Origin: Geobacteraceae bacterium
GTDB taxonomy: Bacteria; Desulfobacterota; Desulfuromonadia; Geobacterales; Geobacteraceae
Direction: 5' to 3'
Length of the DNA stretch: 37,226 nt
NCBI GenBank assembly: GCA_024281055.1
Contig: JAMXLF010000051.1
Location: 1-37,226 of the forward strand
The translations under genes were made by a program, and so were the position numbers. The stretch's first letter is position 1, and every line of letters begins with the position of its first letter. Below the pieces are notes generated by a model. That model saw only the letters and a program-made list of their open reading frames with translations. It had not been told where the DNA came from and did not search any database. Below are positions 1 to 37,226 of this stretch, one piece after another.

Positions 1-1200
1 GACACACGGCTCAACGCCCTCATCCTCTTCGGAAGCGACCAGGAGAAAGAGGACGTCAAGAAACTGATCGCCCTCATCGACGTCGTCCCCCCCACTTCCA
101 GCAGCAAGGTCAATGTCTACTACCTGGAAAACGCCGACGCCACCGATGTGGCCAAGGTACTCGACGGCGTGGTGAAGGGGTCCGTGTCAACCGGCGCGCC
201 CCAGCAGCCGGGTGCGGCACCGCAGCAGTCCCCCTTCGAGGGGGGAAAGATCACCATTACCGCCGACAAGGCGACCAACTCCCTCGTCATCATGGCTTCT
301 CCCACCGACTACCAGAACCTCCTCCAGGTGATCCAGAAGTTGGACAAGCGCCGCCGCCAAGTCTTTGTCCAGGCAATGGTGGCAGAGGTATCCCTCGATA
401 AAGTGAAGGACCTCGGCCTGCAGTGGGGGTTGTTCGGCGCCGCTTCAGACGGCAAGTACGTCAGCGTAGCGGGTTTATACGATCCGCAAAATACCCTCAC
501 CCAGCTCTTTGCTGTCCTGACGGGATTCAGCCAAGCAGGCATTACCCTTCCGGCAACGCTGGGAGGCACGCCGATGAATTTTGCGGCTGTTCTCAAGGCA
601 CTCTTTTCCAACGATGCAACCAACGTCCTTTCCACCCCGACTATCCTGACGTCGGACAACAAGGAGGCGGAGATCTTCGTCGGGCAGAACGTGCCGTTCA
701 TCACCTCAAGCAGCGTCGTCACCGGCGGCATTGCCCAGCAGTCCGTGCAGCGCCAGGATACCGGCATCACCCTTAAGATCACGCCGCAGATCAGCGAGGG
801 GGAGTACGTGAAGCTCGACCTCTACCAGGAGATCTCCTCGGTGACCCCGAACAAGGGACAGGCCACGGACATCGTCACCAACAAGCGCTCGGCCAAGACC
901 TCGGTCGTCGTGAAGGACAAGGACACCGTGGTGATCGGTGGCCTCATCCAGGACCAGGATGTCGAGACCGTCAACAAGATCCCGCTCCTCGGCGACATCC
1001 CGGTCCTCGGCTGGCTCTTCAAGACCACCCATAAGGAGCGGACGAAGACCAACCTGCTCATCGTTCTCACCCCCAGGATCATCAGGGGAGCCCAGGAACT
1101 GGCGGAGGTAACCGACGCCCAGAAGGAGAAGTTCAACAGCGAGGCGGTGCAGTTGGACCAGCCGTTCAGCCTTGAAAAGGGGTTGCAGCTCAAGCCATGA
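1..1200 (+). CDS. gspD: T2SS outer-membrane secretin GspD, 3' part
   Basis: The frame is open from base 1, so the 5' end lies outside the window; 399 codons are visible. GspD forms the outer-membrane channel through which folded periplasmic proteins leave the cell. The visible part starts in the periplasmic N-domain repeats (TRLNALILFGS, then KVNVYYLENADATDVAKVL) and runs into the secretin core: VFVQAMVAEVS, VLSTPTILTSDNKEAEI, VGQNVPFIT, TGITLKITPQI. It ends with the signature VVIGGLIQD, IPLLGDIPVLGWLFK and LLIVLTPRII. The stop overlaps the gspE start as ATGA (1197-1200), which points to translational coupling. A gspC would be expected upstream but cannot be seen. No lipoprotein-type S-domain tail is evident after the secretin core. 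The family assignment is firm. Confidence 0.97.
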   Translation, partial: DTRLNALILFGSDQEKEDVKKLIALIDVVPPTSSSKVNVYYLENADATDVAKVLDGVVKGSVSTGAPQQPGAAPQQSPFEGGKITITADKATNSLVIMASPTDYQNLLQVIQKLDKRRRQVFVQAMVAEVSLDKVKDLGLQWGLFGAASDGKYVSVAGLYDPQNTLTQLFAVLTGFSQAGITLPATLGGTPMNFAAVLKALFSNDATNVLSTPTILTSDNKEAEIFVGQNVPFITSSSVVTGGIAQQSVQRQDTGITLKITPQISEGEYVKLDLYQEISSVTPNKGQATDIVTNKRSAKTSVVVKDKDTVVIGGLIQDQDVETVNKIPLLGDIPVLGWLFKTTHKERTKTNLLIVLTPRIIRGAQELAEVTDAQKEKFNSEAVQLDQPFSLEKGLQLKP

Positions 1201-2759
1201 CCGACAGTTCTGATCTGGAAAAAGTCGCCGAACGGCTCGGCTTACCCTTTCAGGCGGACATCGAGGACAGCCTGGTGGATACCGCCCTGCTGTCCCGGGT
1301 CCCGCTGGCGTTTGTCCGGAACAACCTGCTCCTGCCGCTGCGCGAGGAGGGTGGCCGGCTCCTGGTGGCGGTCGGCAATCCCGCCGACCTCCTGACCATC
1401 GACGAACTGCAGGGCATCTACGGCATGCCGGTGGCATGCATCGCCGTCCCCCCGCAGGCTGTGCTCGACGCCATAAACCGGCTCTACGCACGGCAGTCCG
1501 GCTCGGCCCAGGAGGTGGTGGAAGAGTTGCAGGGAGAAGACCTCTCCACCATAGCCACCGAACTGAACGCGCCGAAAGACCTCCTGGAGCTGACCGACGA
1601 GGCGCCGGTGATCCGGCTCCTGAACTCGATCATCTTCCAGGCGGTCAAGGAGCGGGCGAGCGACATCCACATCGAGCCGTTCGAGCGGGAGCTTGAGGTA
1701 CGCTTCCGGATCGACGGTCTCCTCTATAAGATGCTCGCCCCGCCAAAGGTCGTCCAGGAGGCCCTCATCTCCCGGGTCAAGATCATGGCGGGGCTGAACA
1801 TCGCCGAGAAGCGGCTCCCCCAGGACGGCCGGCTCCGGGTCATCGTCGCCGGCCGGGACGTGGACATCCGCGTCTCGATCCTCCCCACCTTTTTCGGCGA
1901 ACGGGTGGTGCTGCGGCTCCTCGACAAGCAGCGGGGCGTCATCTCCCTGGCCGACATCGGCTTCTCCCCCACCGACGTGCAGGCCATGGAGCGGCTGCTC
2001 GCCCGGACCAGCGGCATCATCCTGGTGACGGGGCCGACCGGCAGCGGCAAGACCACCACCCTCTACGCCGCTCTCTCCCGGATCAACTCGCCGGAGAAGA
2101 ACATCATCACCATCGAGGACCCGGTCGAGTACCAGCTCAAGGGGATCGGCCAGATCCAGGTCAATCCGAAGATCGACCTCACCTTCGCCAACGGCCTCCG
2201 CTCGATCCTGCGCCAGGACCCGGACATCATCATGGTTGGCGAGATCCGCGACGCGGAAACCGCGGAAATCGCCATGCAGGCCTCCCTCACCGGGCACCTC
2301 GTCCTCTCCACCCTGCATACCAACGATGCGGCCACTGCGGTCACGCGCCTCATCGATATGGGAGTCGAACCGTTCATGGTGGCCTCGACCCTCTCCGCGG
2401 TCCTCGCCCAGCGGCTGGTCAGGGTCATCTGCCCCCACTGCAAAGAGGCGTACACGCCGGAGCGGGAGTACGCCGGCATCACCCTGCCGGCAGTCCTCTA
2501 CCGGGGCCGGGGATGCGACAAATGCTTCAACCTGGGGAGTATCGGGCGCACCGGCATCTACGAGCTCCTCCTGATCGACAGTGAGCTCACCTCCATGATC
2601 ATCCGCCAGACACCGGCCGGAGCCATCAAGGAGTACGCCATTTCCCACGGCATGCGAACCCTGCGCGAGGATGGGCTGGCCAAGGCGGCTGCCGGCATCA
2701 CCACCCTCGAGGAAGTGCTCCGGGTTACCCAGGAGGATTATGCCGACCTTCCGCTATAG
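1197..2759 (+). CDS. gspE: T2SS assembly ATPase GspE
   Basis: Cytoplasmic hexameric ATPase that powers pseudopilus assembly; 520 residues, normal for the family. An N-terminal N1E-type region (about residues 1-130) is followed by the N2E/C-terminal ATPase: RASDIHIEPFERELEVRFRI, Walker A GPTGSGKTT with Lys285, and a Walker B region with DPDIIMVGEIRD at 342-353. A zinc-binding four-cysteine module is present at C412/C415 and C440/C443, as in Vibrio/Pseudomonas-type GspE. The start codon sits in the ATGA overlap with gspD and the 3' end overlaps gspF by 20 nt. GspE is expected to dock on GspL and GspF, both encoded downstream. Confidence 0.97.
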   Translation: MTDSSDLEKVAERLGLPFQADIEDSLVDTALLSRVPLAFVRNNLLLPLREEGGRLLVAVGNPADLLTIDELQGIYGMPVACIAVPPQAVLDAINRLYARQSGSAQEVVEELQGEDLSTIATELNAPKDLLELTDEAPVIRLLNSIIFQAVKERASDIHIEPFERELEVRFRIDGLLYKMLAPPKVVQEALISRVKIMAGLNIAEKRLPQDGRLRVIVAGRDVDIRVSILPTFFGERVVLRLLDKQRGVISLADIGFSPTDVQAMERLLARTSGIILVTGPTGSGKTTTLYAALSRINSPEKNIITIEDPVEYQLKGIGQIQVNPKIDLTFANGLRSILRQDPDIIMVGEIRDAETAEIAMQASLTGHLVLSTLHTNDAATAVTRLIDMGVEPFMVASTLSAVLAQRLVRVICPHCKEAYTPEREYAGITLPAVLYRGRGCDKCFNLGSIGRTGIYELLLIDSELTSMIIRQTPAGAIKEYAISHGMRTLREDGLAKAAAGITTLEEVLRVTQEDYADLPL

Positions 2760-3951
2760 CGCATACGGCAAGGGCGGGGGAGAGGTCACCGGCACCGTCG
2801 AGGCGGACAGCCCGCGCGTCGCCCTGGATCGTCTGAAAAAGGACGGCCTCTTCCCCCGGGAAATCGTCCCGGCTGACGAGGTTGCCCCCAAAGGCCACCT
2901 GACGTCCCTGCGCCGGCGGGTCTCCCTGCCGGAACTCGCTCTGATGACCAGACGGCTGGCAACCCTGCTCGGCTCCGCGGTGCCGGTGTACGAGGCGGTC
3001 GCCACCCTCGGCGCCCAAGAGCGGGCAGGAGAGCTGAAAAACGTCCTTGGCCGGGTACGGGAACGGCTGGCCGAGGGGACGGGGCTCGCCAAGGCCATGG
3101 CCGCGGAACCGCGAGTCTTCAGCGACAGCTACGTGAGCATGGTGGCGGCCGGGGAAGCGAGCGGCGCACTGGAAATCGTCCTCGAAAAGCTCGCCGAATT
3201 CCTCGAAGACCAAGACGCGGTCCGGAACAAGGTCGTCACGTCCCTCGCCTACCCGATCCTGATGGTGGTTGTCGGCAGCGGGGTGATGATGTTCCTCCTC
3301 GGTTTCGTCGTCCCTAAGATCGTGACGATCTTCGAGGAAAGCAAGGCCACCCTGCCCCTCATCACCGTGGTACTCATCAAGGTCAGCCACGTGGTGCAGA
3401 AGGGATGGTGGGCATTGCTCCTCCTTGGAGCCGCCACTGTCTTTGCCTACCGGCGGCTGGCGCAGCGCGAGGAGTTCCGCCTCCGCCAGGACCGGTTCCT
3501 GCTCAGGCTCCCCCTGGTCGGAGCCCTCTCGCAACGGCTGCTCCTTTCCCGTTTTGCCAAGGTGCTGGGATTGCTCCTGATGAGCGGCGTGCCGGTCATC
3601 AGGGCCATGGATATCACGAGCGCCGCGGTGGTCAACAGGCAATACCGCTCCTGCCTGGCACAGGTCAAGGAAGAGCTGATCGAGGGAGGGAGCCTCTCCG
3701 CCGCATTGGGGAAAAACTCCCTCTTTCCGCCGCTCCTGGTGCACATGATCGCAGTGGGGGAAAAGAGCGGCGAGCTGGAAAAGATGCTCACCCGGGCAGG
3801 GGACGCCTTCGAAGGCGAGTTCGAGGCGGCGGTGACCCGCCTGATGGCACTTCTGGAGCCTCTGCTCGTCCTGGGAATGGGGGCAACGGTCGGTTTCGTG
3901 GTGGTGGCGGTGCTTCTCCCCATCTTCCAGTTGAATCAGCTGATAAAATAA
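2740..3951 (+). CDS. gspF: T2SS inner-membrane platform protein GspF
   Basis: Polytopic inner-membrane protein of the assembly platform; 403 residues from the chosen ATG. This start (MPTFRYSAYGKGGG) is preferred over an in-frame ATG at 2671 because AGGAGG lies just before it at 2731-2736 and MPxFxYxA is the usual GspF N-terminus. Two GspF repeats are visible, each with LARR/LL-S-type helices (LALMTRRLATLLGSAVP; LLSRFAKVLGLLLMSGVPVI). Three hydrophobic segments follow the family pattern, around ILMVVVGSGVMMFLLGFVV, WWALLLLGAATVFAY and LVLGMGATVGFVVVAVLLP. The gene starts inside the end of gspE. A heptad repeat array follows its stop. Confidence 0.96.
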   Translation: MPTFRYSAYGKGGGEVTGTVEADSPRVALDRLKKDGLFPREIVPADEVAPKGHLTSLRRRVSLPELALMTRRLATLLGSAVPVYEAVATLGAQERAGELKNVLGRVRERLAEGTGLAKAMAAEPRVFSDSYVSMVAAGEASGALEIVLEKLAEFLEDQDAVRNKVVTSLAYPILMVVVGSGVMMFLLGFVVPKIVTIFEESKATLPLITVVLIKVSHVVQKGWWALLLLGAATVFAYRRLAQREEFRLRQDRFLLRLPLVGALSQRLLLSRFAKVLGLLLMSGVPVIRAMDITSAAVVNRQYRSCLAQVKEELIEGGSLSAALGKNSLFPPLLVHMIAVGEKSGELEKMLTRAGDAFEGEFEAAVTRLMALLEPLLVLGMGATVGFVVVAVLLPIFQLNQLIK

Positions 3952-4019
3952 TGTTCAATGTTCTATGTTCAAGGTTCAAGGTTGAAAAGCATGCCATTTA
4001 ACGTTGAACATCGAACTGT
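3952..4019 (+). repeat. Heptad array, GTTCAA family, copy 1
   Basis: Directly after the gspF stop, 7-bp units follow one another: TGTTCAA, TGTTCTA, TGTTCAA, GGTTCAA, GGTTGAA (3952-3986). A short inverted half follows, GTTGAACATCGAAC (about 4003-4016). The array fills the only sizeable gap between gspF and gspG and could fold into a weak hairpin. The same unit occurs at 4482-4592 and 28966-29023. It is not a CRISPR, as there are no spacers and the units are only 7 bp. Confidence 0.8.
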
Positions 4020-4033
4020 TAGGGAGGTTTTTC

Positions 4034-4477
4034 ATGACTCAGACTCTACAAAACGACCGTGGCTTCACCCTCATCGAGATCATGGTGGTCGTGGTTATTC
4101 TGGCTCTCCTCGCGGCCCTGGTCGGGCCGAAAATCATGGGGCGCAGCGATGACGCAAAGATCGCCGACGCCAAGGTCCAGATCCGCAACATCGAGTCCGC
4201 CCTCAAGCTCTACAAACTGGACAATGGCAACTATCCCACCACGGAGCAGGGACTGCATGCCCTGGTGGAAAAGCCGACCGTGGGGCAGATTCCGAAGAAC
4301 TACCGGGCGGAAGGCTACCTGGAGAGCAAGAAGGTGCCCGCGGATCCATGGGGGAACGACTATGTCTATCTCTCCCCGGGTGAGCACAGCGACTACGACC
4401 TCTGCTCCTTTGGGGCCGACGGGACCAAGGGGGGGGAAGGGAAGAACGCGGATATCTGCAGCTGGGATATGCACTAA
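4034..4477 (+). CDS. gspG: T2SS major pseudopilin GspG
   Basis: Major pseudopilin, the main subunit of the periplasmic pseudopilus; 147 residues. The start at 4034 is chosen over an in-frame ATG at 4004 because GGGAGG lies 9-10 nt upstream. The type III leader MTQTLQNDRG is followed by the methylated N-terminus FTLIEIMVVVVILALLAALV (cleavage G10/F11, with Glu at mature position 5). The C-terminal calcium loop is recognisable: YPTTEQGLHAL, VPADPWGNDYVYLSPG, and SDYDLCSFGADGTKGGEGKN. Unusually, two cysteines, C124 and C142, flank this loop and could pair as a disulfide. Heptad arrays lie on both sides of the gene. Confidence 0.97.
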   Translation: MTQTLQNDRGFTLIEIMVVVVILALLAALVGPKIMGRSDDAKIADAKVQIRNIESALKLYKLDNGNYPTTEQGLHALVEKPTVGQIPKNYRAEGYLESKKVPADPWGNDYVYLSPGEHSDYDLCSFGADGTKGGEGKNADICSWDMH

Positions 4478-4481
4478 TTAC

Positions 4482-4592
4482 TGTTCAAAGTTCAATGTTC
4501 AAAGTTAACCACTTGGAGCTTTAACCGTTCTCAGCAGGCCAATTGAACATGACGTTAAAGAAACATAGAACCTTGAACCTTGAACATAGAAC
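4482..4592 (+). repeat. Heptad array, GTTCAA family, copy 2, entering gspH
   Basis: The left half (about 4482-4506) carries TGTTCAA, AGTTCAA, TGTTCAA and AGTTAAC in 7-bp steps. The inverted half (4564-4591) is CATAGAA, CCTTGAA, CCTTGAA, CATAGAA. The spacer between the halves holds the probable gspH start codon. The whole right half is therefore translated as residues 6-15 of GspH. Confidence 0.8.
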
Positions 4593-5103
4593 TGGTTTTC
4601 AAGCTGGTTTCACCCTCATCGAGATGGTGGTGGTGATCGTCATTATCTCGCTCGTGGCGCTCCTCGTCATCCCCCTCTTCCCGTCAACCAACGCCGCGGA
4701 CCTGCGCCGGTCAGCGCGGTCGCTGGCGGCGGCCATCAGGTACCTGGGTGACCAGGCGGTGACGACCAGGATGCCGTATCGCCTCCACCTGGACGTGAGC
4801 GGCAATAGGATAACCATCGGGAAACCGGGCACCGGGGGGGAGAGCGCCCCCGCCGACCCCTTTCTCAACCGGCCCATACTGACGGAGGGAGTCACCATAG
4901 CCGACGTAGAGGTTCCCCGGCTGGGGAAGCTGACCGCAGGGGACGTGGCCATGGATTTCGGCGTGGCGGGACTTGGAGAATTCACGGTCATCCATCTCCG
5001 GGGGGCCGGTGACAGCTACCTTACGATAACGGCGTTCCCTAACGGGGGAAGGGTGACAGTCAGCGACGGATACCAGGAACAGGACGAGGGGGCGAAGCCG
5101 TGA
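4549..5103 (+). CDS. gspH: T2SS minor pseudopilin GspH
   Basis: Minor pseudopilin, part of the pseudopilus system; 184 residues from ATG 4549. A TTG at 4543 is an alternative start two codons upstream, and neither has a clear Shine-Dalgarno sequence. The prepilin motif is QAG|FTLIEMVVVIVIISLVALLV, giving a 20-residue leader. The leader is odd: residues 6-15 (HRTLNLEHRT) are translated from the inverted half of the heptad array. The mature part shows the GspH pattern: LRRSARSLAAAIRYLGDQAV, then a beta-rich domain with VAMDFGVAGLGEFTVIHLRG. The stop overlaps the gspI GTG start (5100-5103). Family assignment is good; the exact start is uncertain. Confidence 0.88.
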   Translation: MTLKKHRTLNLEHRTGFQAGFTLIEMVVVIVIISLVALLVIPLFPSTNAADLRRSARSLAAAIRYLGDQAVTTRMPYRLHLDVSGNRITIGKPGTGGESAPADPFLNRPILTEGVTIADVEVPRLGKLTAGDVAMDFGVAGLGEFTVIHLRGAGDSYLTITAFPNGGRVTVSDGYQEQDEGAKP

Positions 5104-5456
5104 AGGGCTTCACGCTGCTGGAAGTGATGATCGCCCTGGCCATCATGGCGGGCGTCATCATGACGGTCATCAACTCCTTCAACTATCACCTTTCGGTGGT
5201 CAGTCGGGACCGGGAGGAGACAATCGCCATGCTCCTCGCCCGGGCGAAGCTGGAGGACCCCGCCTTCGTAAAGAGCATTGCCGGCAAAGGGACCTTTGCC
5301 CCCGACTGGCCCGGTTTCACCTGGAAAACGGAGATTCAACCGGCGGACTTCCCGGGGGTGACCGGCCAGTTGAACCAGCTGACCATGACGGTTTCCTGGG
5401 ATGATGAGCGGAGAAACCTGTCCCTTGTCCAGTATGTGGCAAAAGCACAGCAGTAG
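5100..5456 (+). CDS. gspI: T2SS minor pseudopilin GspI
   Basis: Small pseudopilin of 118 residues that starts with GTG inside the gspH stop (GTGA). It has a very short leader, MKG, followed by FTLLEVMIALAIMAGVIMTV with Glu5 of the mature protein. The rest matches the GspI domain: AMLLARAKLED, FAPDWPGFTWKTEIQPADFPG, LNQLTMTVSWDDE. In the known tip complex, GspI forms a heterotrimer with GspJ and GspK, both encoded next. Its 3' end overlaps the chosen gspJ start by 23 nt. Confidence 0.93.
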   Translation: MKGFTLLEVMIALAIMAGVIMTVINSFNYHLSVVSRDREETIAMLLARAKLEDPAFVKSIAGKGTFAPDWPGFTWKTEIQPADFPGVTGQLNQLTMTVSWDDERRNLSLVQYVAKAQQ

Positions 5457-6108
5457 TCCGAACCGGCGCGTTTCCTCCCAGGGCTTCACGCTCCTCGAGG
5501 TGCTGGTAGCCCTGGCCCTCCTGGGCATCATTAGCGCCGCCCTCTACGGCACTTACTTCTCCCTCATGCGGGGCAGGGATGCAGCCCAGACGCGGATGAC
5601 AGAGCGCCGGGAGCTCTCCACCACCCTGGATCAGCTGCGCCGGGAGCTGACCGCCGTTTTTTTCACGACGCAGTCGTTGGGAAGCAGCCTCCCCGCCGGC
5701 GATCAGCAGAACATGCAGCTCCATTTCGTCGTCGAGGACCGGGACTTCTTCGGCAAACCGGCATCCGCACTCGACTTCACCGCCTTGGTTCCCCCGCGCG
5801 GCGGCACTATTCCCGCGTCGGACCAGGTCCGGATCCGGTACCGGGTCGAGGAAAAGGACGGGAAGCTGCGCCTGATGCGACTGGAGAAAGACCGTTTTGT
5901 GATCGCCGACCCGCTCCCCTACCCTCAGCTCGAAGAGCTGGAAGGCTTCCTGGTGGAGTGTTCCACCGACGGCACGCAATGGGTGAAGACGTGGGATAGC
6001 GCCATTAACCACGGGCTGCCGAAGTATGTCAGGGTGACCATCCGGGTGAAGGAGGGGGAGAATACCGTAGCGCTTTCCGCCATCGCCACCCCCAGCGTGA
6101 AGCAATGA
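5434..6108 (+). CDS. gspJ: T2SS minor pseudopilin GspJ
   Basis: Pseudopilin of the tip complex; 224 residues from ATG 5434. The leader MWQKHSSSPNRRVSSQG is followed by FTLLEVLVALALLGIISAAL, so cleavage is expected at G17/F18. An in-frame ATG at 5401 would give an 11-residue longer leader; neither has a strong ribosome site, and translation probably re-initiates from gspI. The mature protein shows GspJ features: MTERRELSTTLDQLRRELTA, LDFTALVPPRGG, VRIRYRVEEKDGKLRLMRLE. The stop overlaps gspK by ATGA. Confidence 0.93.
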   Translation: MWQKHSSSPNRRVSSQGFTLLEVLVALALLGIISAALYGTYFSLMRGRDAAQTRMTERRELSTTLDQLRRELTAVFFTTQSLGSSLPAGDQQNMQLHFVVEDRDFFGKPASALDFTALVPPRGGTIPASDQVRIRYRVEEKDGKLRLMRLEKDRFVIADPLPYPQLEELEGFLVECSTDGTQWVKTWDSAINHGLPKYVRVTIRVKEGENTVALSAIATPSVKQ

Positions 6109-7058
6109 AGAGCGAAGGGGGGTTCGCCCTCGTCCTCACCCTGATCGTCACCGCCCTGCTGGTGGCCCTCTCCGCCGAGTTCGTGAGCGAGGTGTTCGTC
6201 GACACCTCCGCCCGCCAGAACTTCGTGGACGGCCAGCAGGCGAGCGTGTACGCCCGGTCCGGCGTCGAGGCCGCCGTCAAGGGACTGCAGCAAATGCTCA
6301 TGCTGCGCCCCAGTTACACGACACTAGCGGACATCTGGGCCACCCCCTACCAGGCCGAGGTGGCAAAGGGAAAGCTCCGGGTGGTCATCGAGGACGAAAC
6401 CGGCAAGCTCTGCATGAACAGGATCGCCTCGCCCACCGGAGAGTTGACGGATACAGACTTTTACTATGCCACGGCGGTCCGCCTCCTCAAGAGACTGAAG
6501 CTGCAACCCTTCCTGCTGGAGGCGGTGGCCGACTGGGTGGGAAGCAACGAAACCCCGCACCCCAATGGCGCGAAGACCCCCTATTACGCCACCCTGAAGC
6601 CCCCCTACCAGGCAAAGGGGGCACTTCTCGACACGGTCGAGGAACTGCGGCTCGTCAAGGGGTTCGATGCCGCGACCTTCGAGGCGCTCCGGCCGTTCGT
6701 GACAGTCTATGGCGTCAGAGTGGGTAATGTGGTCGTTGCGGCACCCATCAACATCAACACGGCGCCGAAAGAGGTTATCGTCTCCCTCGCCGAGAACATG
6801 AGCGACAGTCTTGCCGACGCGGTCATCGACTACCGCAAGACGACGCCGTTCACGACAACCGGCGAACTGGCCAACGTGCCCGGCATGGCCACGATAGCCC
6901 AGAGCATCCAGACGAATATCATCGTGCGCGGACTGGTCTACCGGATCCGCGCCGAGGCTACTGTGGGGGAAACGACGCGGACCATCGAGGCGGTGGTGGA
7001 CCTGAGCAGCAGCGGTCTGTTCCAACAGGTCCCGTACCTCTACTGGAGAGAATACTGA
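6105..7058 (+). CDS. gspK: T2SS minor pseudopilin GspK
   Basis: Large minor pseudopilin thought to cap the pseudopilus tip; 317 residues. The leader MKSEGG is followed by FALVLTLIVTALLVALSAEF. The mature protein lacks the usual Glu at position 5 (it is Leu), which is normal for GspK. A helical GspK domain insertion is visible, followed by the SAM-like motif ININTAPKEVIVSLAENMSD and the region VIDYRKTTPFTTTGELANVPG. The start overlaps the gspJ stop by ATGA, and its TGA overlaps the gspL ATG (TGATG). Confidence 0.95.
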   Translation: MKSEGGFALVLTLIVTALLVALSAEFVSEVFVDTSARQNFVDGQQASVYARSGVEAAVKGLQQMLMLRPSYTTLADIWATPYQAEVAKGKLRVVIEDETGKLCMNRIASPTGELTDTDFYYATAVRLLKRLKLQPFLLEAVADWVGSNETPHPNGAKTPYYATLKPPYQAKGALLDTVEELRLVKGFDAATFEALRPFVTVYGVRVGNVVVAAPININTAPKEVIVSLAENMSDSLADAVIDYRKTTPFTTTGELANVPGMATIAQSIQTNIIVRGLVYRIRAEATVGETTRTIEAVVDLSSSGLFQQVPYLYWREY

Positions 7059-16851: not shown

Positions 16852-17967
16852 ATGCAATGTCCGAAATGTCTGAAGGAGCAACCATCTGAGACGGAGTGCG
16901 TCTACTGCGGCGTTATCTTTGAAAAATATCAAAAGCAGCATGCTCGCATGGGCTGCGACGAACAGCACCCTCCCGAAGGGGAAAAGTCCCGTCACTTGCT
17001 CTGGTACGGTGTTGCCGGCGTCATCGGTGTCGTGGCGATCGCCTGCTACGCTGCTCTCGGCAAAGGATCAACGACTCCTCGCGCTGCAGGCGAACACGCA
17101 ACGAGTACCTCGACGGCTCCTGCCACCACGGTGAATGCGGATGCTGGCGCCACTGTCATCATGACCGGCATCAAGAGCAGGCTGCAGACAAATTCCCCCC
17201 CGAAAAACAGCATTGAGCAAGCCCGCAATGCCACCGTGTACCTCGCAACCAGCTGGGGCTCCTCAGGATCGGGCTTTTTTGTCGATGATCGGTGTCATAT
17301 TGTGACGAATTCCCATGTCGTCAAGGTTGATGACGAAGCCCTTAGAAGGGCAACCGCGATCCGCGACGAGTATAAGAAGTCGATTGAAATGGAGCAGGAT
17401 TATCTTTCCCAGGTAAAACAGCGATCAAACTTTTCAACAGACATGGCTGCCAGAGAATCTGTTACAGATAGAGAAGCAAGACTTGCGGTTCAGATTGCCA
17501 AGTATGAGAAAATTGCGTCGCTGATTGACAATGCTCAGTCGGATTCGCCCGCCAATATCAAGATCGTGCTCATTGACGGCTCCGAATTGTCGGTGTATTC
17601 GGTCAAACACAGCACGAATTACGACCTGGCGCTGTTGAGCGCACGCTGCGAAGATTCCCCTTTCATCCCGCAATCGGCAACGGACAGTCTTGCCATGAGT
17701 CAAAAGCTGTTTACCGTCGGTAATCCCCAAGGAATGAAATTCACTGTTACCAGCGGGATTTTCTCCGGTTGGCAGAATATCAATAATGTTAAAGTGCTGC
17801 AGACCGACGCTCCCATTAACCCGGGTAACAGCGGCGGCCCGCTGCTCAATGAAAGTGGCAAAGCCATCGGAGTCAATACAGCGGTACTGAGCAACAGCCA
17901 AGGCATCGGTTTTGCTCTGCCCATTGATTACGTATTCAGTGAGTTCAAGAGCGATATAAATCGATGA
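16852..17967 (+). CDS. Membrane-anchored HtrA-like serine protease with N-terminal zinc ribbon
   Basis: Protein of 371 residues, preceded by AAGGAG. The N-terminus is a small cytoplasmic zinc ribbon with C3/C6/C16/C19 (MQCPKC and CVYCG). It is followed by a TM helix at about 49-70 and a low-complexity Ala/Thr linker. A trypsin-like domain has a full catalytic triad: H155 (TNSHVV), D258 (YDLALLS) and S327 (NPGNSGGPLL). About 70 residues of mostly helical, charged sequence are inserted between His and Asp, where DegP has about 30 residues in total. No PDZ domain is present. The downstream gene is convergent. Confidence 0.85.
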   Translation: MQCPKCLKEQPSETECVYCGVIFEKYQKQHARMGCDEQHPPEGEKSRHLLWYGVAGVIGVVAIACYAALGKGSTTPRAAGEHATSTSTAPATTVNADAGATVIMTGIKSRLQTNSPPKNSIEQARNATVYLATSWGSSGSGFFVDDRCHIVTNSHVVKVDDEALRRATAIRDEYKKSIEMEQDYLSQVKQRSNFSTDMAARESVTDREARLAVQIAKYEKIASLIDNAQSDSPANIKIVLIDGSELSVYSVKHSTNYDLALLSARCEDSPFIPQSATDSLAMSQKLFTVGNPQGMKFTVTSGIFSGWQNINNVKVLQTDAPINPGNSGGPLLNESGKAIGVNTAVLSNSQGIGFALPIDYVFSEFKSDINR

Positions 17968-17985
17968 TACCGCTTCCTCACGCCG

Positions 17986-19155
17986 TTAGAAATGCTCCCC
18001 TCTCCCGATCTCTTCCCCTTCCACCGCCGTCCTGCCCGCCTTGCGCCGCTCCCAGACGCTCACCTGCCAGTTGTCCGCTCTCCCCGGCGCGGCGATCCAT
18101 GGGGGAACACGGACATGGAAGTAGGTGGCCAATGCGTTGACGTATGGTTCGTACAGCCAGCGCAGCTCCGCCAGCCTCTCGTCGGCATCGTTCCCCTCGC
18201 GCAGTTTCACACCGTGAGCTGCCAGCCCGGAGCGCAGCTCGGCCAGCTGCCCGGGCGGCAGCCGGTTCTGCCTCAGCTCCAGCGGCTTGGTCTGGAAGAC
18301 GAGGGAGAGATCGACGACCGCGTGCCGGGCCATGGCGAAGGTGAGCTCCGCCTGGCGCTCACAGGCTCCCTCGACACCCGCCATGACCAGCGCGCAGGTG
18401 TCGAGGATCGCCGTCAGCGCCCCGAGCCATGACTGGTTGTCGTGCTGGGAACGGAAATAGGCAAGGACCGGATACGAGAGGTGCCCTTCGAGGAACTCCG
18501 CCGACCACTGCTCCCATTCGTGGAGGAGCTGGCGCAGGGCCTCCATACCCCGCTCGTAGCCATGCCGACGTAGCATCTCCGAGGCTGTCGGGGGGGATCC
18601 GGCGCGTGCGTCGAGGAGCGAGATGAGCATCTCGCGGCGGGCGAAGTACTGGTTGAGGGCGGGAAGATAGCCGATGACTAGGGCGAGGAACGCGAACCCC
18701 ATCCCCGATTCGAGCACCACGAGGAAGCGCGCCAGCGTGGTGCGGGGAATGACGTCCCCCAGCCCGAGGGTGAAGAAGGTGGTGCCGCTCAGGTAGAGGT
18801 CGGTGCTAAAGCCAGCGCTCCCCTCGTGGGTCATGATTGCCGACCCGTTTGCCCAGTGGAGGAGCGCGAAGCCCGTGATCAGCACGACTGCCCAGATACT
18901 CAGAAGGAGCAGGAGCGACAGCGGGCCGAACACGCTCAGCCAGGTTTCCTGGCGCCTGGCCGGGATATGGGAGCGGACCAGTTTCGACCACGGACGCCAG
19001 GTGCGCCGGTAGAAGAAGCGGGTCATGCGGAAGCGGCGGGTCACCCTCCGCGGGAGAACTATGGTTTCGAACCCCTCCCACAGGACCCCCAGGATCAGGA
19101 GCCCTCCGACCAGCGCTGCAACGATTTCCACATATGCCTCCAGGATAGCGCCCAT
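17986..19155 (-). CDS. Two-TM potassium-channel-family protein
   Basis: Protein of 389 residues. N-terminal hydrophobic segments (about 10-27 and 80-100) precede a pore loop with the filter TLGLGD at 129-134 and a further TM helix (FLVVLESGMGFAFLALVIGY). This is the Ion_trans_2 pattern. The filter has Leu-Gly-Leu-Gly-Asp in place of the usual Val-Gly-Tyr-Gly-Asp, so potassium selectivity is uncertain. The C-terminal 210 or so residues are cytoplasmic and helical, with no recognisable RCK or cyclic-nucleotide domain. The gene converges on the protease gene with only 18 nt between the stops. Confidence 0.8.
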   Translation of the reverse strand: MGAILEAYVEIVAALVGGLLILGVLWEGFETIVLPRRVTRRFRMTRFFYRRTWRPWSKLVRSHIPARRQETWLSVFGPLSLLLLLSIWAVVLITGFALLHWANGSAIMTHEGSAGFSTDLYLSGTTFFTLGLGDVIPRTTLARFLVVLESGMGFAFLALVIGYLPALNQYFARREMLISLLDARAGSPPTASEMLRRHGYERGMEALRQLLHEWEQWSAEFLEGHLSYPVLAYFRSQHDNQSWLGALTAILDTCALVMAGVEGACERQAELTFAMARHAVVDLSLVFQTKPLELRQNRLPPGQLAELRSGLAAHGVKLREGNDADERLAELRWLYEPYVNALATYFHVRVPPWIAAPGRADNWQVSVWERRKAGRTAVEGEEIGRGEHF

Positions 19156-32123: not shown

Positions 32124-32778
32124 CCACAAGACAAGTCCCTTCTGTCAAGATAGCTGGCAGATATCGCCATGTGATAGATCAGTCAGTGACATTTGGCAGA
32201 AGTGGACGACGTATACAATTTATATCGTCAACGTCAAGCTTGACTGCCGCAACAACGATTCTGATTCTTCGAGAAACCTACGCTACATCATTCTCTTCGC
32301 CAGTCGATAATATAAAATAAATTATTATTAATAAAATTTACAAAAAAATTCATGAAAATTCTTATTGACTTAGCTTGTAATGGCAGTAAACTATATTACA
32401 GATAAGAGTCATGCTGGCAACAGCTCGTGAGTGGTTTGACGTTTGTGTGTTTGGTCTATTTTAGACCGTGATTTTGCGATTTAATATTTATTATTAAAGC
32501 ATATTAAAAGAATCAGCCAATCACTTCTGTAACATCCCGTATAAATCTGCATCATTCTTTTAACCTTCAACTATTAATATGGACCAAAGGCGGACGCAGC
32601 TAAGAGCCGATCATACGGATAATAGCAACTTCTATCTGACGAAACCGTCTGCGACAGCATCAGCCATTTCAGGTTCCGCATGTACGGAAAAAACTTATGT
32701 GCAGGGAAGAGAAACTCAAAGCGGCCTCAACAAGCGTACTTCTACATTGGGATATATGATAAAAAAAGGAGGGTTACA
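32124..32778. other. Long AT-rich regulatory gap before the multicopper oxidase unit
   Basis: 655 nt without a convincing gene; clearly AT-rich in its middle. It holds a perfect 12-bp palindrome GTCAAGCTTGAC (32233-32244), a perfect hairpin GGTCTA-TTT-TAGACC (32453-32467), a promoter candidate (separate entry), and a leader of nearly 400 nt. A small hairpin GACG-AAAC-CGTC lies near 32640. I compared the leader with the GEMM cyclic-dinucleotide riboswitch and did not find its core. A 67-codon frame (32579-32782) lacks a ribosome site and is not called. Confidence 0.6.
32365..32392 (+). promoter_or_regulatory. Candidate sigma-70 promoter of the multicopper oxidase unit
   Basis: TTGACT (32365-32370), 16-nt spacer, TAAACT (32387-32392), in an AT-rich setting. 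Transcription from here would leave a leader of nearly 400 nt before the small secreted protein. By eye only. Confidence 0.45.
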
Positions 32779-33006
32779 ATGAACAGGCGCAAAATTTTGA
32801 TGTACCTATGGGTGTCGTTGGCAATTGCGACACCTTCCCTGGGTAACAACCTGGCCAATGCGGCCCCGGGATTCACCAATTACTCGGGTGCCCATGCCAA
32901 GGGTAAACTGAGGGGGACGACAAATGCCCAGCGAAGGGAAGCGGCAAGACGTGCCGCTGCGCAACGCGACGCAGCCTCTGGCCAGACTGAAGGAGGGTCC
33001 AGATGA
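32779..33006 (+). CDS. Small secreted basic protein coupled to the multicopper oxidase
   Basis: 75 residues, not recognised. A strong ribosome site (AAAGGAGGG) precedes ATG 32779. The N-terminus is a Sec signal ([20 protein letters not shown], cleavage likely after ANA near residue 28). The mature part is about 47 residues. It has a Gly/aromatic start ([15 protein letters not shown]) and a strongly basic, Ala/Arg-rich helix ([13 protein letters not shown]). There are no cysteines and few possible metal ligands. The stop overlaps the oxidase start (ATGA, 33003-33006), so the two are translationally coupled. A carrier, chaperone or electrostatic partner of the oxidase is possible but only inferred. 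Confidence 0.75.
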
Positions 33007-36000
33007 ACAGACAACGTGTATTTTCATGGTTGTGTCTGGCACTGGCTGCACTGATTACCGGCTTTAGCCTGAGCGACGCGCTCGCCGCGTATGCTCCGCC
33101 GCCCCAGATACCGACGTGCACCGCCGGCGGGCCAACCCCGTGCACCGACTACTTCGGTGTTCCCAACTACGCCAACAGCCCGCTCCCGGCCGGGGCCATC
33201 ACGGCCATCACAGTAACGGCAGCGGGGAGCGGCTACACCTCTCCCCCGGCAGTCACCATCACCGACCCCACCGGCACTGGTGCGACGGCCACGGCAACGG
33301 TCTCCGGTGGCTACGTTGCTGCCATCACGGTGGTGAACCAGGGCAGCGGCTACATCGCCCCCCAAGTCACCATTGCGCCTCCCCCGGTTTCCACCGGTGT
33401 TACTGCCGAAGCTACCGCAACTGTGGGCGGCGCCCTCACCGGAGGTGTCCGAAAGTTCGTCGATCTGCTTCCCGGCCTGTGCGGGGTTTCGGCGCCCAAC
33501 GGACTGGGGCAGTGTATCCCGGTTGCGGTGCCGGACACCACGACCTTTCCGGCAACTGCAACCAGCCCGGCCAGTGATTATTACGTTGTCGGCCTGAGCG
33601 ATTACACCCAGCAAATGCATACCGACCTCCCCGTCACCAAGCTGCGGGGCTACGTGCAGCTCAACGCACCGACCGGATCCCCTGCAGCCGCGCACCAGTA
33701 CCTGGGGCCCATGATCCTGGCCCAGAAGAACCGCCCCGTGCGGGTCCTGTTCAAGAACCAGGTCGGGACCGGAAGCGCGGGCGACCTCTTCCTCCCGACC
33801 GACACCACGTACATGGGGGCGGGCATGGGACCTGACGGGACGAGCTTCTACACCCAGAACCGCGCCAACCTTCATCTCCACGGCGGACACACGCCCTGGA
33901 TCAGCGACGGCACCCCCCACCAGTGGATTACCCCGCCGAATGATACCGCCACCTACACGAAAGGAGATTCGTTCCAGAACGTGCCGGACATGGTGGGACC
34001 CGGCGCGCCGATCCCCACCTCGACCGCGACCGACGGCCTGGGGTCGTACTATTGGACCAACCAGCAGAGTGGTCGACTGCTCTTCTATCACGACCACGCC
34101 TACGGCACTACCCGTCTGGACGTTTATGCCGGTGAGGCCGCCGGTTACCTGATCGTCGACCCGGCGGGGGAAGAAACCCTGCTTAAGAACGCAACAGCTC
34201 CCGGGACGATCCCCAATACCACCACCACCGGCGCGCTCGACCTGACAACCGCCGATCTGGCGCACCTGATCCCCTTCGTGATCCAGGACAAGACCTTCGT
34301 TCCGCCGGCCGCCCAATTGACCGCGCAAGACCCCACCTGGAATACGACACTATACGGCGGGGCGGGGAGCCTCTGGTTCCCCCACGTCTACATGACGAAC
34401 CAGGACCCGGCCGATCCCATGAATATGAACCCCTTCGGCCGGTGGGACTACGGCCCCTGGTTCTTCCCGCCGCAGACATCGCTCACGGCCGGCCCCCTCA
34501 CGATCCCCTGTGTCTCCGCCGGGCACCCGGGCGTTACGGTACAGTGTCCCATCATACCCAACCCGTCCGGCACGCCTGAGGCCTTCATGGACACCCCGGT
34601 GGTCAACGGCACCGCATATCCCGTCCTCCACGTAGCGCCGTCCGCCTACCGGCTCCAGATGCTTAATGCTGCCAACGACCGGACCTGGAACCTGTCATGG
34701 TTCATTGCCGACGCAACCGGCAAGGAAGTGCCGCTGGTCCCCGCGGTAACCCCCGTACCGGGCTCGGCAACGCCGCTCTGTACGATCGCCACCCAAGTCA
34801 CCAACCCCGGGATCAACGGCCTTGCTGTCGGCGCCCTGGACTCGACCGGCATGCCACTGAACGGCACGGGCCTTCCGGCGAACTGCTGGCCCTCGACCTG
34901 GCCGACCACCACCGGTATGACTTCCGGTCTGACCGGAGTAGTCGCAAACCCGCTCTATGCAGGTCCGGCATGGATACAGATCGGCACCGAAAGCGGCCTC
35001 CTGCCGGCACCGGTGGTGATCCCCCCCACACCCGCCCTCTACGAGACCAACCCTAAAAGCGTCACGGTTGGCAGCGTCTCGACCCACGGGCTTCTCCTGG
35101 GGCCGGCCGAGCGGGCCGACGTCATCGTCGACTTCAGCAAGTTTGCCGGCAAGACGCTCATCCTTTATAATGACGGCCCGGCGCCGATTCCCGGTTACGA
35201 CATCCGCTACGACTACTACACGGGTAATGCCGACCTGACCTCGACGGGGGGCGCACCGACAACCCAGCATGGTTATGGCCCCAACACACGGACGATCATG
35301 CAGGTCGTGGTGGACGGAACGGCGCCGAACGCCACGCCGTTCAGCCTGGCCACGTTGACCGCGGCGTTCGCCACAACCTCTACGACCACGGGCCTCTTCA
35401 ACTCGCTTCAGAATCCCCCGGTCATACCGGAGTCAGCGTACAATTCCGCCTTTAATGCTACATATCCCAACACCTACATGAAGCTCCAGGATGACTACAT
35501 CAGCTACGTCAACAGCGACGGCACCCTGCCGGGAATCACCGTGACCGCCGGAGGGAGTGGTTACACCTCTGCCCCTGCGATCACCTTCACGGGTGGAGGA
35601 TGCACGACCACCCCGGTCGCAACAGCCACCGTTTCAGGCGGAGCCGTCACCGCCATCACCCTTACCAGCCCGGGTGCCGGTTGCACCTCCGCCCCCACCG
35701 TCACCATCGGCGGTCCCGGCACGGGGGCGACAGCCATTGTCGGCGCATATATACAACGGAAGGCCATCCAGGAGCTCTTCACTGCGGATTACGGCCGGAT
35801 GAATGCCACCCTGGGGACCGAACTGCCGTTGACCAGTTTCCTTACCCAGACGACTATCCCCTTGGGGTACATCGATCCCCCCACCGAGATCTTCAGGGAC
35901 GGCGAAATACAGTTCTGGCGCGTAACCCACAACGGTGTCGATACCCATCTCATCCACTTCCATCTCTTCGATGTGCAGGTAATCAACCGGGTCGGCTGGG

Positions 36001-37226
36001 ACGGCACCGTCAGACCGCCTGACCCGAACGAGTTGGGATGGAAGGACACCGTGCGGATGAACCCGCTCGAGGACATCGTGGTCGCTTTGCGACCCGCAAA
36101 GATGACCCTGCCATTCCCGCTCCCCGATAGCGTCCGCCCCCTGGACCCGACCATGCCCCTTGGCACCACCACGCAGTTCACCGGCATCGACCCATTCACC
36201 AATCTGCCGATGACTGTCGTCAACCAGATGGTCAACTTCGGCTGGGAGTATGTCTGGCACTGCCACATCCTCGGCCATGAAGAGAATGACATGATGCGGC
36301 CGATGGTCTTCCAGGTACCGCCTGAGGCTCCGACCGGTCTGAGCGCGACAGTCCAAACAACTCCCTCGGCGGGTGTTCTGCTTACCTGGACGAACCACGC
36401 AGTTAGCGCCACCAGCTTCACCATCCAGCGGGCGCTGGATGCCGGATTCACGACCGGCCTGGCTACGTTCACACTCGGAACTCCCAGCATGGCGGCAACA
36501 CCGCTCCCGCAGGGAACGACGACGTACCTCGATGCCACAGTGGCACCCGGGACGACATACTATTACCGGGTCGCATCCACTAAGACATTCCCGGCACGAC
36601 AAAGCCCCACGTGGTCTCCCACTCCTGTAACCGAAGACGTCAGTTCCGCCTGGTCGGTTTCAGCATCCATTCTGAGCGCAGGCTTGGGGCTAACGGCGAA
36701 TCCGTCCAGCCCATCACTGACAGGAACTACTGTTGCCATCACCGCAACTATGCCTGGCGTCTCGGTTCGATACCAGTTCTGGCTGCTGGCCCCGGGGGCA
36801 ACAACCTGGACCCTTGGGCAGGCTTACAGCACCAATCAGACCTGGAACTGGAAAACGACCGGATTGCCGGCAGGCTCATATGTAATCAGGGTCTGGGCGA
36901 AAAATTCCGGTTCGGCGGCCACGTATGACCAAGCCACAAACCTGTATTACACCCTCAACTATCCGCCAGCAACAGCGGTCGCCGTGGCTGCGAATCCCCT
37001 TCCCCCCGCTACCGCTGGGGCAAGCGTCACATTTACCGCCACCGCCTCTGGCGGCACTGGCACTTACCAGTATGAGTTCTGGCTGCTCGCCCCGGGGGGA
37101 ACGACCTGGACCTTGGGTAAGGCATACAGCTCCAGCAACACTTGGACGTGGAACACGACCGGATTGAAAGCCGGCAGCTATACGGTCAGAGCCTGGGCAA
37201 AGAATGCCGGATCGACGACAGCCACC
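33003..37226 (+). CDS. Very large secreted multicopper oxidase, 5' part (OmpB/OmpC-like)
   Basis: Open to the window end; 1408 codons visible, 3' end missing. AAGGAGGG precedes the ATG, which overlaps the small gene. A Sec signal ([15 protein letters not shown], cleavage near LAA|YAP) is seen, with no twin-arginine motif. All four copper motifs are present: HLHGGH at 291-296, HDH at 363-365, HLIHFH at 982-987, and [12 protein letters not shown] at 1086-1097, giving a full type 1 plus type 2/3 set with axial Met1097. GSGYTSPP-type beta repeats lie at about 65-149 and again inside the oxidase at 844-914. After the oxidase come a fibronectin III-like domain (about 1106-1205) and at least two 100-residue repeats. 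A related Geobacter protein, OmpB, is linked to reduction of insoluble metal oxides and is secreted by a type II system. Confidence 0.93.
36687..37226 (+). repeat. Tandem 300-bp coding repeat at the oxidase C-terminus
   Basis: Two units with the same register 300 bp apart: [19 protein letters not shown] (from 36774) and [19 protein letters not shown] (from 37074), both going on to W-W-TTGL-AGSY-VR-WAKN-GS. DNA identity is high, so duplication is probably fairly recent. The array continues past the window end. The domains look like beta-sandwich surface modules. Confidence 0.85.

Follow-up and report, generated by a model that had tools for sequence, protein, structure and literature searches.

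The window analysed here (37,226 nucleotides from a soil Geobacteraceae bacterium) ends within the gene of a giant multicopper oxidase (P0001) which, judged from its sequence and its predicted structure, is a complete CotA-fold multicopper oxidase core, interrupted by a separate beta-repeat module. The best explanation, towards which we lean, is that the module serves as a surface-extension or binding decoration on an intact CotA-type three-domain oxidase. A hydrophobic leader was read by eye from the N-terminal translation, and the enzyme is probably secreted. The gene and its catalytic features are located as follows:

33003 to 37226, forward strand: giant multicopper oxidase (P0001), 1408 aa visible, with a hydrophobic N-terminal leader, truncated by the end of the contig (C51)
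33444 to 36320, forward strand: catalytic core with the CotA fold (residues 148-1106), split by the site C repeat pair
33873 to 33881, forward strand: copper motif 1, H291-L-H293
34089 to 34097, forward strand: copper motif 2, H363-D-H365 (CotA equivalents 153/155 in the alignment)
35946 to 35963, forward strand: copper motif 3, H982-xx-H985-x-H987 (H982 aligned with CotA 419)
36258 to 36293, forward strand: copper motif 4, H1086-C1087-H1088 to M1097 (M1097 at CotA position 502)

The CotA-type set of motifs (HxH, HxH, HxxHxH and HCHxxxH....M) is present in full, and reading of the residues together with the CotA alignment confirmed an earlier observation, made in a preliminary description of this DNA, that all four copper motifs are intact. 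The AlphaFold2 model of the oxidase (mean pLDDT 83.1, pTM 0.88) contains three cupredoxin domains in the CotA arrangement according to structural alignment: CotA (7y8b) matched model residues 121-1079 with a Z score of 32.7 and an rmsd of 1.9 over 477 of its 490 residues. A Foldseek search with the model returned a best E of 1.1e-37, and phmmer matched the sequence to CotA (1gsk) with an E of 5.3e-34. Plasmid records searched with P0001 gave no match at E ≤ 1e-20.

The repeat is a two-unit beta-repeat of the GSGYTSAP type. Across homologues it is found mainly at three sites, of which two are occupied in the giant oxidase:

33195 to 33449, forward strand: site A, the pair near the N-terminus (residues 65-149, with units detected at 67-105 and 107-144)
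34713 to 34718, forward strand: site B, position after residue 571, at which relatives carry repeats and the giant oxidase carries none
35532 to 35744, forward strand: site C, core repeat pair (residues 844-914; units 844-882 and 883-914)

The preliminary description had placed pairs at 844-914 and 65-149 and suggested a profile search with the repeat alone and a structure prediction, both of which bore it out. A repeat profile of 10 rows, built without those of the giant oxidase, recovered residues 67-141 with 62.3 bits and 844-912 with 61.4 bits, far above the best score of 4.3 bits in 1000 full shuffles; 1000 local shuffles gave no reported match. PHROG profiles, which were made independently of this analysis, matched both pairs as well (best E 2.2e-21). 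In the AlphaFold2 model both pairs are all-beta segments, site A (model residues 36-119) with pLDDT values of 73-94 in blocks of 10 residues and site C with block values of 91-96. The site C pair is taken to lie in the linker from domain 2 to domain 3; a strand (933-940) in the conserved segment KAIQELF..YGRMNA.LG.E begins 19 residues past it. The two cysteines for which a disulfide had been considered, C867 and C894, are both present in the site C pair, the latter occupying the alignment column of the near-invariant Tyr of GxGY. In a 29-row alignment covering far-apart phyla, the Gly and Tyr of GxGY and the Pro that follows are invariant or nearly so. The composition is rich in Gly, Thr and Ala, with no obvious pattern of binding residues, a point against the decoration reading. 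TRF reported no DNA-level tandem repeat in the giant oxidase gene, which gives no sign of a recent DNA-level tandem duplication.

The wide separation of copper motifs 2 and 3 had been described as about twice that of ordinary laccases and as partly due to the repeat pair. Both statements hold: the motifs are 617 residues apart in the giant oxidase versus 264 in CotA in the same alignment, and about 71 of the 353 excess residues (roughly one fifth) belong to the repeat. Judged by the ends of the alignment segments, the excess is located at 391-515 (+89), 565-691 (+106) and 725-957 (+158, repeat included). The remainder is common among relatives, the spacing being 506 in L022-L024, which have no site C array, and 335-659 in the 95 homologues without a core repeat. 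Because the median in these 95 proteins is already 541, the insert was ruled out as the cause of the doubled spacing.

Homologues were sampled from the best 80 of 306 genome-contig loci plus 40 family loci picked by hand from a scan in which up to 12 first-look candidates per genome were scored, so that its counts are lower bounds. The resulting 133 ORFs were reduced to 120 by dropping five overlapping loci of the own genome, seven identical rows and the near relative L026, which is identical to L030 over 80 residues at motif 4, and to 119 by removing a 520-aa ORF without core motifs; three oxidases of 714-752 aa, distant or short, were kept. The motif rule yielded no ORF for L051 and caught only a different, 714-aa ORF for L070. 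The repeat is present in 49 of the 119 homologues and absent from 70, at site A in 32, at site B in 9 and at site C in 15 (with the array of L075 at residue 779 counted as site C), so that it is no integral part of the cupredoxin fold, and other oxidases have it as well. Both paralogues in the same genome carry repeats at site B. Between 1 and 18 units were detected per array and nearly always at least two, the counted array of L065 being a single unit of 19 bits; at site C, 18 units were detected in L021, six in Anaeromyxobacter oryzae (L108) and two in the giant oxidase. On a FastTree phylogeny of the 119 cores, in which 32 of 116 inner branches were open, at least 20 presence changes were counted (A 14, B 6, C 8). 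This tolerance of changing presence, copy number and site fits a surface decoration rather than a catalytic element.

That the module had been copied into the enzyme, as the preliminary description proposed, was followed through the identities of the units, which average 0.50 within an array and 0.45 between proteins. The nearest of 145 units to C1 of the giant oxidase is its own A1 (identity 0.69; next 0.67), which speaks for copying from the N-terminus. Against it, A1 has closer matches in two other proteins (0.72 and 0.71), and the nearest units to C2 and A2 lie elsewhere. Units at different sites of the same protein are on average 0.451 identical versus 0.448-0.453 for units of different proteins. 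A copying of the site C module from the N-terminus, as read from these sequences, is unproven.

The repeat also occurs in phage proteins. Eighteen PHROG families matched the giant oxidase at E ≤ 1, 17 of them best on a repeat pair; the best stretch of phrog_18315 (1107-1203) lies outside the pairs. The families matching the repeat include head closure (PHROG 460), baseplate wedge and tail fibre proteins. When the predicted array of L108 (mean pLDDT 77.9, pTM 0.63, weak at 150-167 and 178-185) was used as query in place of the giant oxidase's own pair, 42 viral protein models in BFVD matched at E ≤ 0.001 (lowest 1.5e-12). The named ones are phage proteins except for two of Sylvanvirus. Neck and baseplate proteins of phages match both in sequence and in fold, and P22 gp10-like models are among the repeat matches. 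A tblastn search of phage records with the insert gave no match, possibly owing to low-complexity masking. Among PDB entries, phmmer with the N-terminal pair found no relative at E ≤ 1 and a profile search had no match better than E 0.05; fold searches with the L108 model reached a best E of 3.8 (Foldseek) and a best Z of 2.0 (VIA). Pfam searches yielded no credible model for the repeat, and its motif strings were not mentioned in the open-access literature searched, where a description under another name would escape. The absence of solved relatives does not prove a new fold.

Outside phages, most carriers in the genomes searched were oxidases. All nine repeat-bearing ORFs found in 48 family genomes were oxidases (E ≤ 1e-6), as were 14 of the 15 found in 395 genomes of the phylum (E ≤ 1e-8). 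The phylum counts are lower bounds, with up to 14 first-look candidates scored per genome, as are those of a further search in which 150 of 182 candidates were scored in one genome. Five non-oxidase carriers were met, i.e. a collagen-like protein, two large repeat-rich proteins, a short ORF and a DUF2589 protein, of which the first three look by eye like surface proteins. A general adhesin would be expected to be common in other surface proteins, yet the repeat was found mostly in oxidases, which counts against the decoration reading. This near-confinement hints at a job tied to the enzyme, or simply at inheritance, and is itself biased towards oxidases because the profiles used to search for the repeat were derived from these enzymes.

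Three other explanations were weighed. We regard as extremely improbable, and reject, the idea that residues 844-914 are an integral cupredoxin element of the oxidase family. Prediction confidence for the segment is high, and the last repeat strand continues into the next core segment (strand at model residues 883-899), as such an element would; against this, 104 of the 119 homologues (e.g. L022-L024) have no site C array, and CotA, without the insert, aligns over nearly its full length. It is mainly the many homologues without it that mark site C as an extra element. A shared insert in all relatives, or a model without a separate repeat domain, would have spoken against an inserted module; instead, the CotA core is complete apart from this separate module, and the majority of relatives have no insert at this site. 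A substrate gate or lid, in which the site C module near the type 1 copper entrance would restrict or guide substrate by analogy with the CueO helix, appears improbable. In CotA-type enzymes the type 1 copper is carried by domain 3, and site C is placed directly ahead of this domain. However, the identical type of module is found at sites A and B too, the 18 units of L021 would make a very large lid, and the CueO profile alignment to the giant oxidase ended in domain 2, so that it gave no equivalence of the two places.

Rather unlikely, though less so than a lid, is a neutral spacer, i.e. a tolerated, weakly selected insert at permissive loops that is maintained by recombination among the genes of giant oxidases and has no binding role. 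The range of unit numbers, the divergence of the units, the lack of a DNA-level tandem array in the gene and the 70 homologues that manage without the repeat are all in line with it, and the last of these also counts against a binding decoration. The reading frames nevertheless remain open, and the Gly, Tyr and Pro positions are (nearly) invariant in 29 rows from distant phyla. Free drift would be expected to produce scatter and decay, so the recurrence mainly at three sites, nearly always with two or more units, counts against a neutral spacer.

If the repeat is a surface-extension or binding decoration, the two-unit module would decorate the N-terminal leader and the junction of domains 2 and 3, project from the enzyme surface and act as an extension or binding patch that keeps the oxidase attached to a matrix or to particulate substrate. 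Catalysis would run as usual, from the type 1 copper to the trinuclear cluster. The module may plausibly adhere to minerals, polysaccharide or cells. The C-terminal array may serve the same anchoring purpose:

36678 to 37226, forward strand: C-terminal Ig/Y_Y_Y-like array, truncated where the contig stops (judged by eye to span approximately residues 1226-1408 and to extend further)

Of the growing C-terminal array proposed earlier, the array itself stood, with Y_Y_Y and Big_7 matches that are both below the Pfam cut-off, and the growth is unproven. A phage Fn3-like Pfam model matched weakly (E 0.027), with no fn3 match. At the end of another contig (C102), a stop-terminated open frame of 167 aa is 66% identical to residues 1256-1408 (153 residues) and is likely, by this similarity, the continuation of the giant oxidase; the ends of C51 and C102 showed no exact overlap when compared.

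Directly upstream of the oxidase lies a small gene:

32779 to 33006, forward strand: small basic ORF (P0002) with a hydrophobic leader; frame open from 32680, likely start at 32779 by eye

Its stop codon overlaps the oxidase start codon (ATGA), and the protein is probably secreted. In many relatives a small basic protein is encoded directly upstream of the oxidase or fused to it.

More tentatively, and as a possibility we hold well below the decoration itself, the beta-repeat, for which no Pfam or PDB relative was found, may belong to an exterior kit common to phage particles and giant extracellular oxidases. It would have entered repeatedly at three favoured sites, from a pair to an 18-unit array in the catalytic-domain linker, giving adjustable reach or grip on a solid substrate, with a dedicated small basic partner as upstream gene or fused N-terminal segment. 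Large multicopper oxidases outside the cell have been linked to the chemistry of insoluble iron and manganese, and a module varying from 1 to 18 detected units may offer a way into the question of how such an oxidase is retained beside a solid. Being placed at favoured sites, shared with phages and found mostly in these oxidases, it is amenable to deletion and swap. Long insertions between the catalytic domains of a laccase-like enzyme are shown here to occur naturally.

With CotA laccase and bacterial bilirubin oxidase (1gsk, 7z5p; structural match across some 480 residues at a Z of about 32) the giant oxidase shares the three-domain core, the four copper motifs and the axial Met; it differs from CotA in its two repeat pairs, its leader, its C-terminal Ig-like array and a stretch from motif 2 to motif 3 that is longer by about 350 residues. 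Its likeness to OmpB (GSU1394) and OmpC from Geobacter sulfurreducens and to MofA from Leptothrix, all extracellular oxidases, is one of description: it is a large multicopper oxidase from a Geobacteraceae bacterium, has a putative leader and carries a candidate Ig-like part at its C-terminus. An EXXE iron-binding motif is ascribed to OmpB; the visible 1408 residues contain none, and the C-terminus beyond the contig end could hold one. In the four genomes of genus g6, no repeat was detected at E ≤ 1e-6, and L196 holds two lineages of HLHG-bearing oxidase, the second of which shares 34% identity with P0001 across 104 residues. CueO is likewise a multicopper oxidase with an extra element; in CueO this is a helix close to the type 1 copper, in the giant oxidase a beta-repeat. 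With phage virion modules, finally, the giant oxidase has the GSGYTSAP-type repeat in common by profile and, as read from the L108 array, by predicted fold; in phages it sits in particle proteins, whereas here it lies inside an enzyme.

The oxidase ORF P0001 is the last ORF of contig C51, which makes up the window in full. All four copper motifs, described earlier as intact, could be read in it:

33003-37226, forward strand: multicopper oxidase ORF, last in the contig, 1408 residues, open at the contig end
H291/H293: copper motif 1, intact
H363/H365: copper motif 2, intact
H982/H985/H987: copper motif 3, intact
H1086-C1087-H1088 and M1097: copper motif 4, intact, CotA numbering from alignment

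M1097 aligns with residue 502 of the laccase CotA, the axial Met of that enzyme. CotA (phmmer E 5.3e-34) and the bilirubin oxidases are the nearest solved relatives by sequence. At the end of another contig of the same genome (C102), an open frame of 167 residues, part of the C-terminal Ig-like array, is terminated by a stop (L012:6784-7287); it probably supplies the 3' end that the oxidase gene lacks in the window.

The repeat unit comprises about 37 residues of the approximate form [32 protein letters not shown]. A profile built from ten repeat rows, with the window's own units left out, matched residues 67-141 (62.3 bits) and 844-912 (61.4 bits), whereas the best of 1000 full shuffles reached 4.3 bits and no match was reported for any of 1000 local shuffles. 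The repeat pairs proposed for the N-terminus and the interior of the oxidase region were thus confirmed, at about 62 bits each, and public phage profiles match both places too. The preliminary description had also ascribed a roughly doubled spacing between copper motifs 2 and 3 in part to the inner pair. The gap of 617 residues stands (264 in CotA, i.e. 353 residues extra), but the repeat provides only about 71 of the 353. By alignment segment, the excess over CotA is +89 (391-515), +106 (565-691) and +158 (725-957), and the repeat share of about 71 residues lies in the last of these. Since the gap, measurable in 117 of 120 ORFs, has a median of 541 (range 335-659) in the 95 homologues without core repeats, the doubled spacing is largely a family trait.

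Structure prediction, which had been proposed as a check, was performed with AlphaFold2 on residues 28-1106 using a 66-row alignment (model residue equals protein residue minus 27) and gave a mean pLDDT of 83.1 and a pTM of 0.88. Both pairs were predicted as strands and turns, the N-terminal pair (site A) at model residues 36-119 (block pLDDT 73-94) and the core pair (site C) at 817-890 (block pLDDT 91-96). The core aligns with CotA: VIA-align placed 477 of the 490 residues of CotA (7y8b) on model residues 121-1079 (Z 32.7, rmsd 1.9), and therefore almost the entire CotA is matched by about half of this stretch. The site C pair stops 19 residues ahead of strand 933-940. This strand is taken to open domain 3 according to the domain limits of CotA, and site C is for this reason placed in the linker between domains 2 and 3.

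P0001 has a match at E <= 1e-20 in 30 of 48 genomes of its family, the Geobacteraceae; from the named genome collection, the best 80 of 306 encoding stretches were retained as relatives. The repeat is present in 49 of 119 non-redundant oxidases, at site A (leader, about 64-149) in 32, at site B (domain 2, after 571) in nine and at site C (837-917 in most of them, near 779 in one) in 15. Both paralogues in the window's genome have sites B and C occupied and site A empty. At site C, two units were detected in the window, six in Anaeromyxobacter oryzae and 18 in L021, a locus of genus g5 of the same family and the row closest to the window in a FastTree tree of the cores. The presence of the repeat must have changed a minimum of 20 times on this tree (14 for site A, 6 for site B and 8 for site C), with gains and losses inseparable. 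Most arrays are probably old, because units within one array (mean identity 0.50) are just slightly more alike than units of different proteins (0.45). The L021 frame (460-6984) encodes 2175 residues, and its 18 units cover about 700 residues, placed between catalytic domains 2 and 3. N-terminal arrays such as those of L127 and L130 contain five full repeats and a partial unit at both ends, and look as though they were self-closing.

The repeat profile was derived from oxidase repeats, which biases all of the following counts toward oxidases. The proposed search with the repeat alone placed 13 of 13 matches in the window's genome (E <= 0.01) inside three oxidase ORFs, and the 48 family genomes yielded 23 matches (E <= 1e-6) in seven genomes and nine ORFs, all nine of them oxidases. 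In a phylum sample of 395 genomes, at least 13 genomes and at least 15 ORFs were matched at E <= 1e-8 (lower bounds, with up to 14 candidates per genome scored); the 15 ORFs among the matches listed were 14 oxidases and, as the only non-oxidase carrier, a DUF2589 protein with an inserted pair. In this protein (L155:1192-2145) the single pair lies just ahead of the main DUF2589 match. Among 24 genomes selected for a repeat in their oxidase, at least 23 were matched at E <= 1e-8, with at least 28 ORFs: 24 oxidases, identified by ORF length (22) or motif (2), and four others, all within one 12.6-Mb Verrucomicrobia genome. The latter, named by eye, are a collagen-like protein, its neighbour, a short ORF, and two large repeat-rich proteins.

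The most interesting part is the repeat family itself, for which our searches yielded neither a model nor a structure nor, in open-access papers, a printed motif: we obtained no credible Pfam model, no relative among PDB sequences and no match of the six-unit A. oryzae array (L108) among PDB folds. The model of this array (pLDDT 77.9, pTM 0.63, weak around 150-185) matched 42 predicted viral proteins at E <= 0.001, the best of them (E 1.5e-12) without a name. Apart from two of Sylvanvirus, the named matches are phage proteins, including P22 gp10-like, neck, virion structural and baseplate wedge proteins. By these matches, phage particles and the giant oxidases have a module in common.

One further ORF adjoins the oxidase:

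32680-33006, forward strand, likely start 32779: P0002, small basic ORF with hydrophobic leader and basic tail, directly upstream of the oxidase

Its stop overlaps the oxidase start (ATGA), and Pfam returned no match for it at E <= 1. By a fixed rule, devised like the tail profile after examples had been seen, a P0002-like ORF is in place at 40 of 113 oxidases versus 9 of 1991 random anchors; the 40 are alike in make-up rather than all demonstrably homologous, with only about 19 reaching E < 0.01 by profile. A segment resembling the P0002 tail occurs within the oxidase itself in 14 of 137 N-terminal entries (>= 5 bits; some phylum-sample loci repeat one ORF) versus 0 of 685 shuffles. In L077, for instance, the segment reads [23 protein letters not shown], where P0002 has [23 protein letters not shown]. 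The fused segment was found in none of the 40 oxidases with a separate ORF versus 13 of the 73 without (Fisher p 0.004, optimistic as rows are related). The P0002-type protein looks like an oxidase partner, either split or fused. Another small ORF, which has a hydrophobic leader and the motif CxVVExPDHYEAxC, is found upstream of the oxidase genes and close to them in L010, L011 and L027. A genus g6 genome (L196) carries two further leader-bearing ORFs near the giant oxidase, one of 1069 residues (1136-4345) and one with a copper motif, cut by the locus end (17915-19001), which shares 34% identity with P0001 across 104 residues.

P0001 is well supported as a variant, in its architecture, of an enzyme type already known. 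Its oxidase core is intact, and the beta modules are additions of variable site and number. The module may serve as a surface extension or grip. The main rival reading is that the repeat is a neutral spacer; that it forms a substrate lid is a further possibility. For P0001, a surface extension or grip is the candidate role we infer, and mineral or matrix contact would be the natural guess by analogy, because the published account of the OmpB-type oxidase of Geobacter gives it a fibronectin domain possibly involved in attachment (PMC5566968). OmpB differs in that an EXXE motif is reported for it, whereas the visible 1408 residues of P0001 contain none. A soil metatranscriptome study reports high expression of Geobacter genes that combine fibronectin III parts with laccase parts (PMC6199725).
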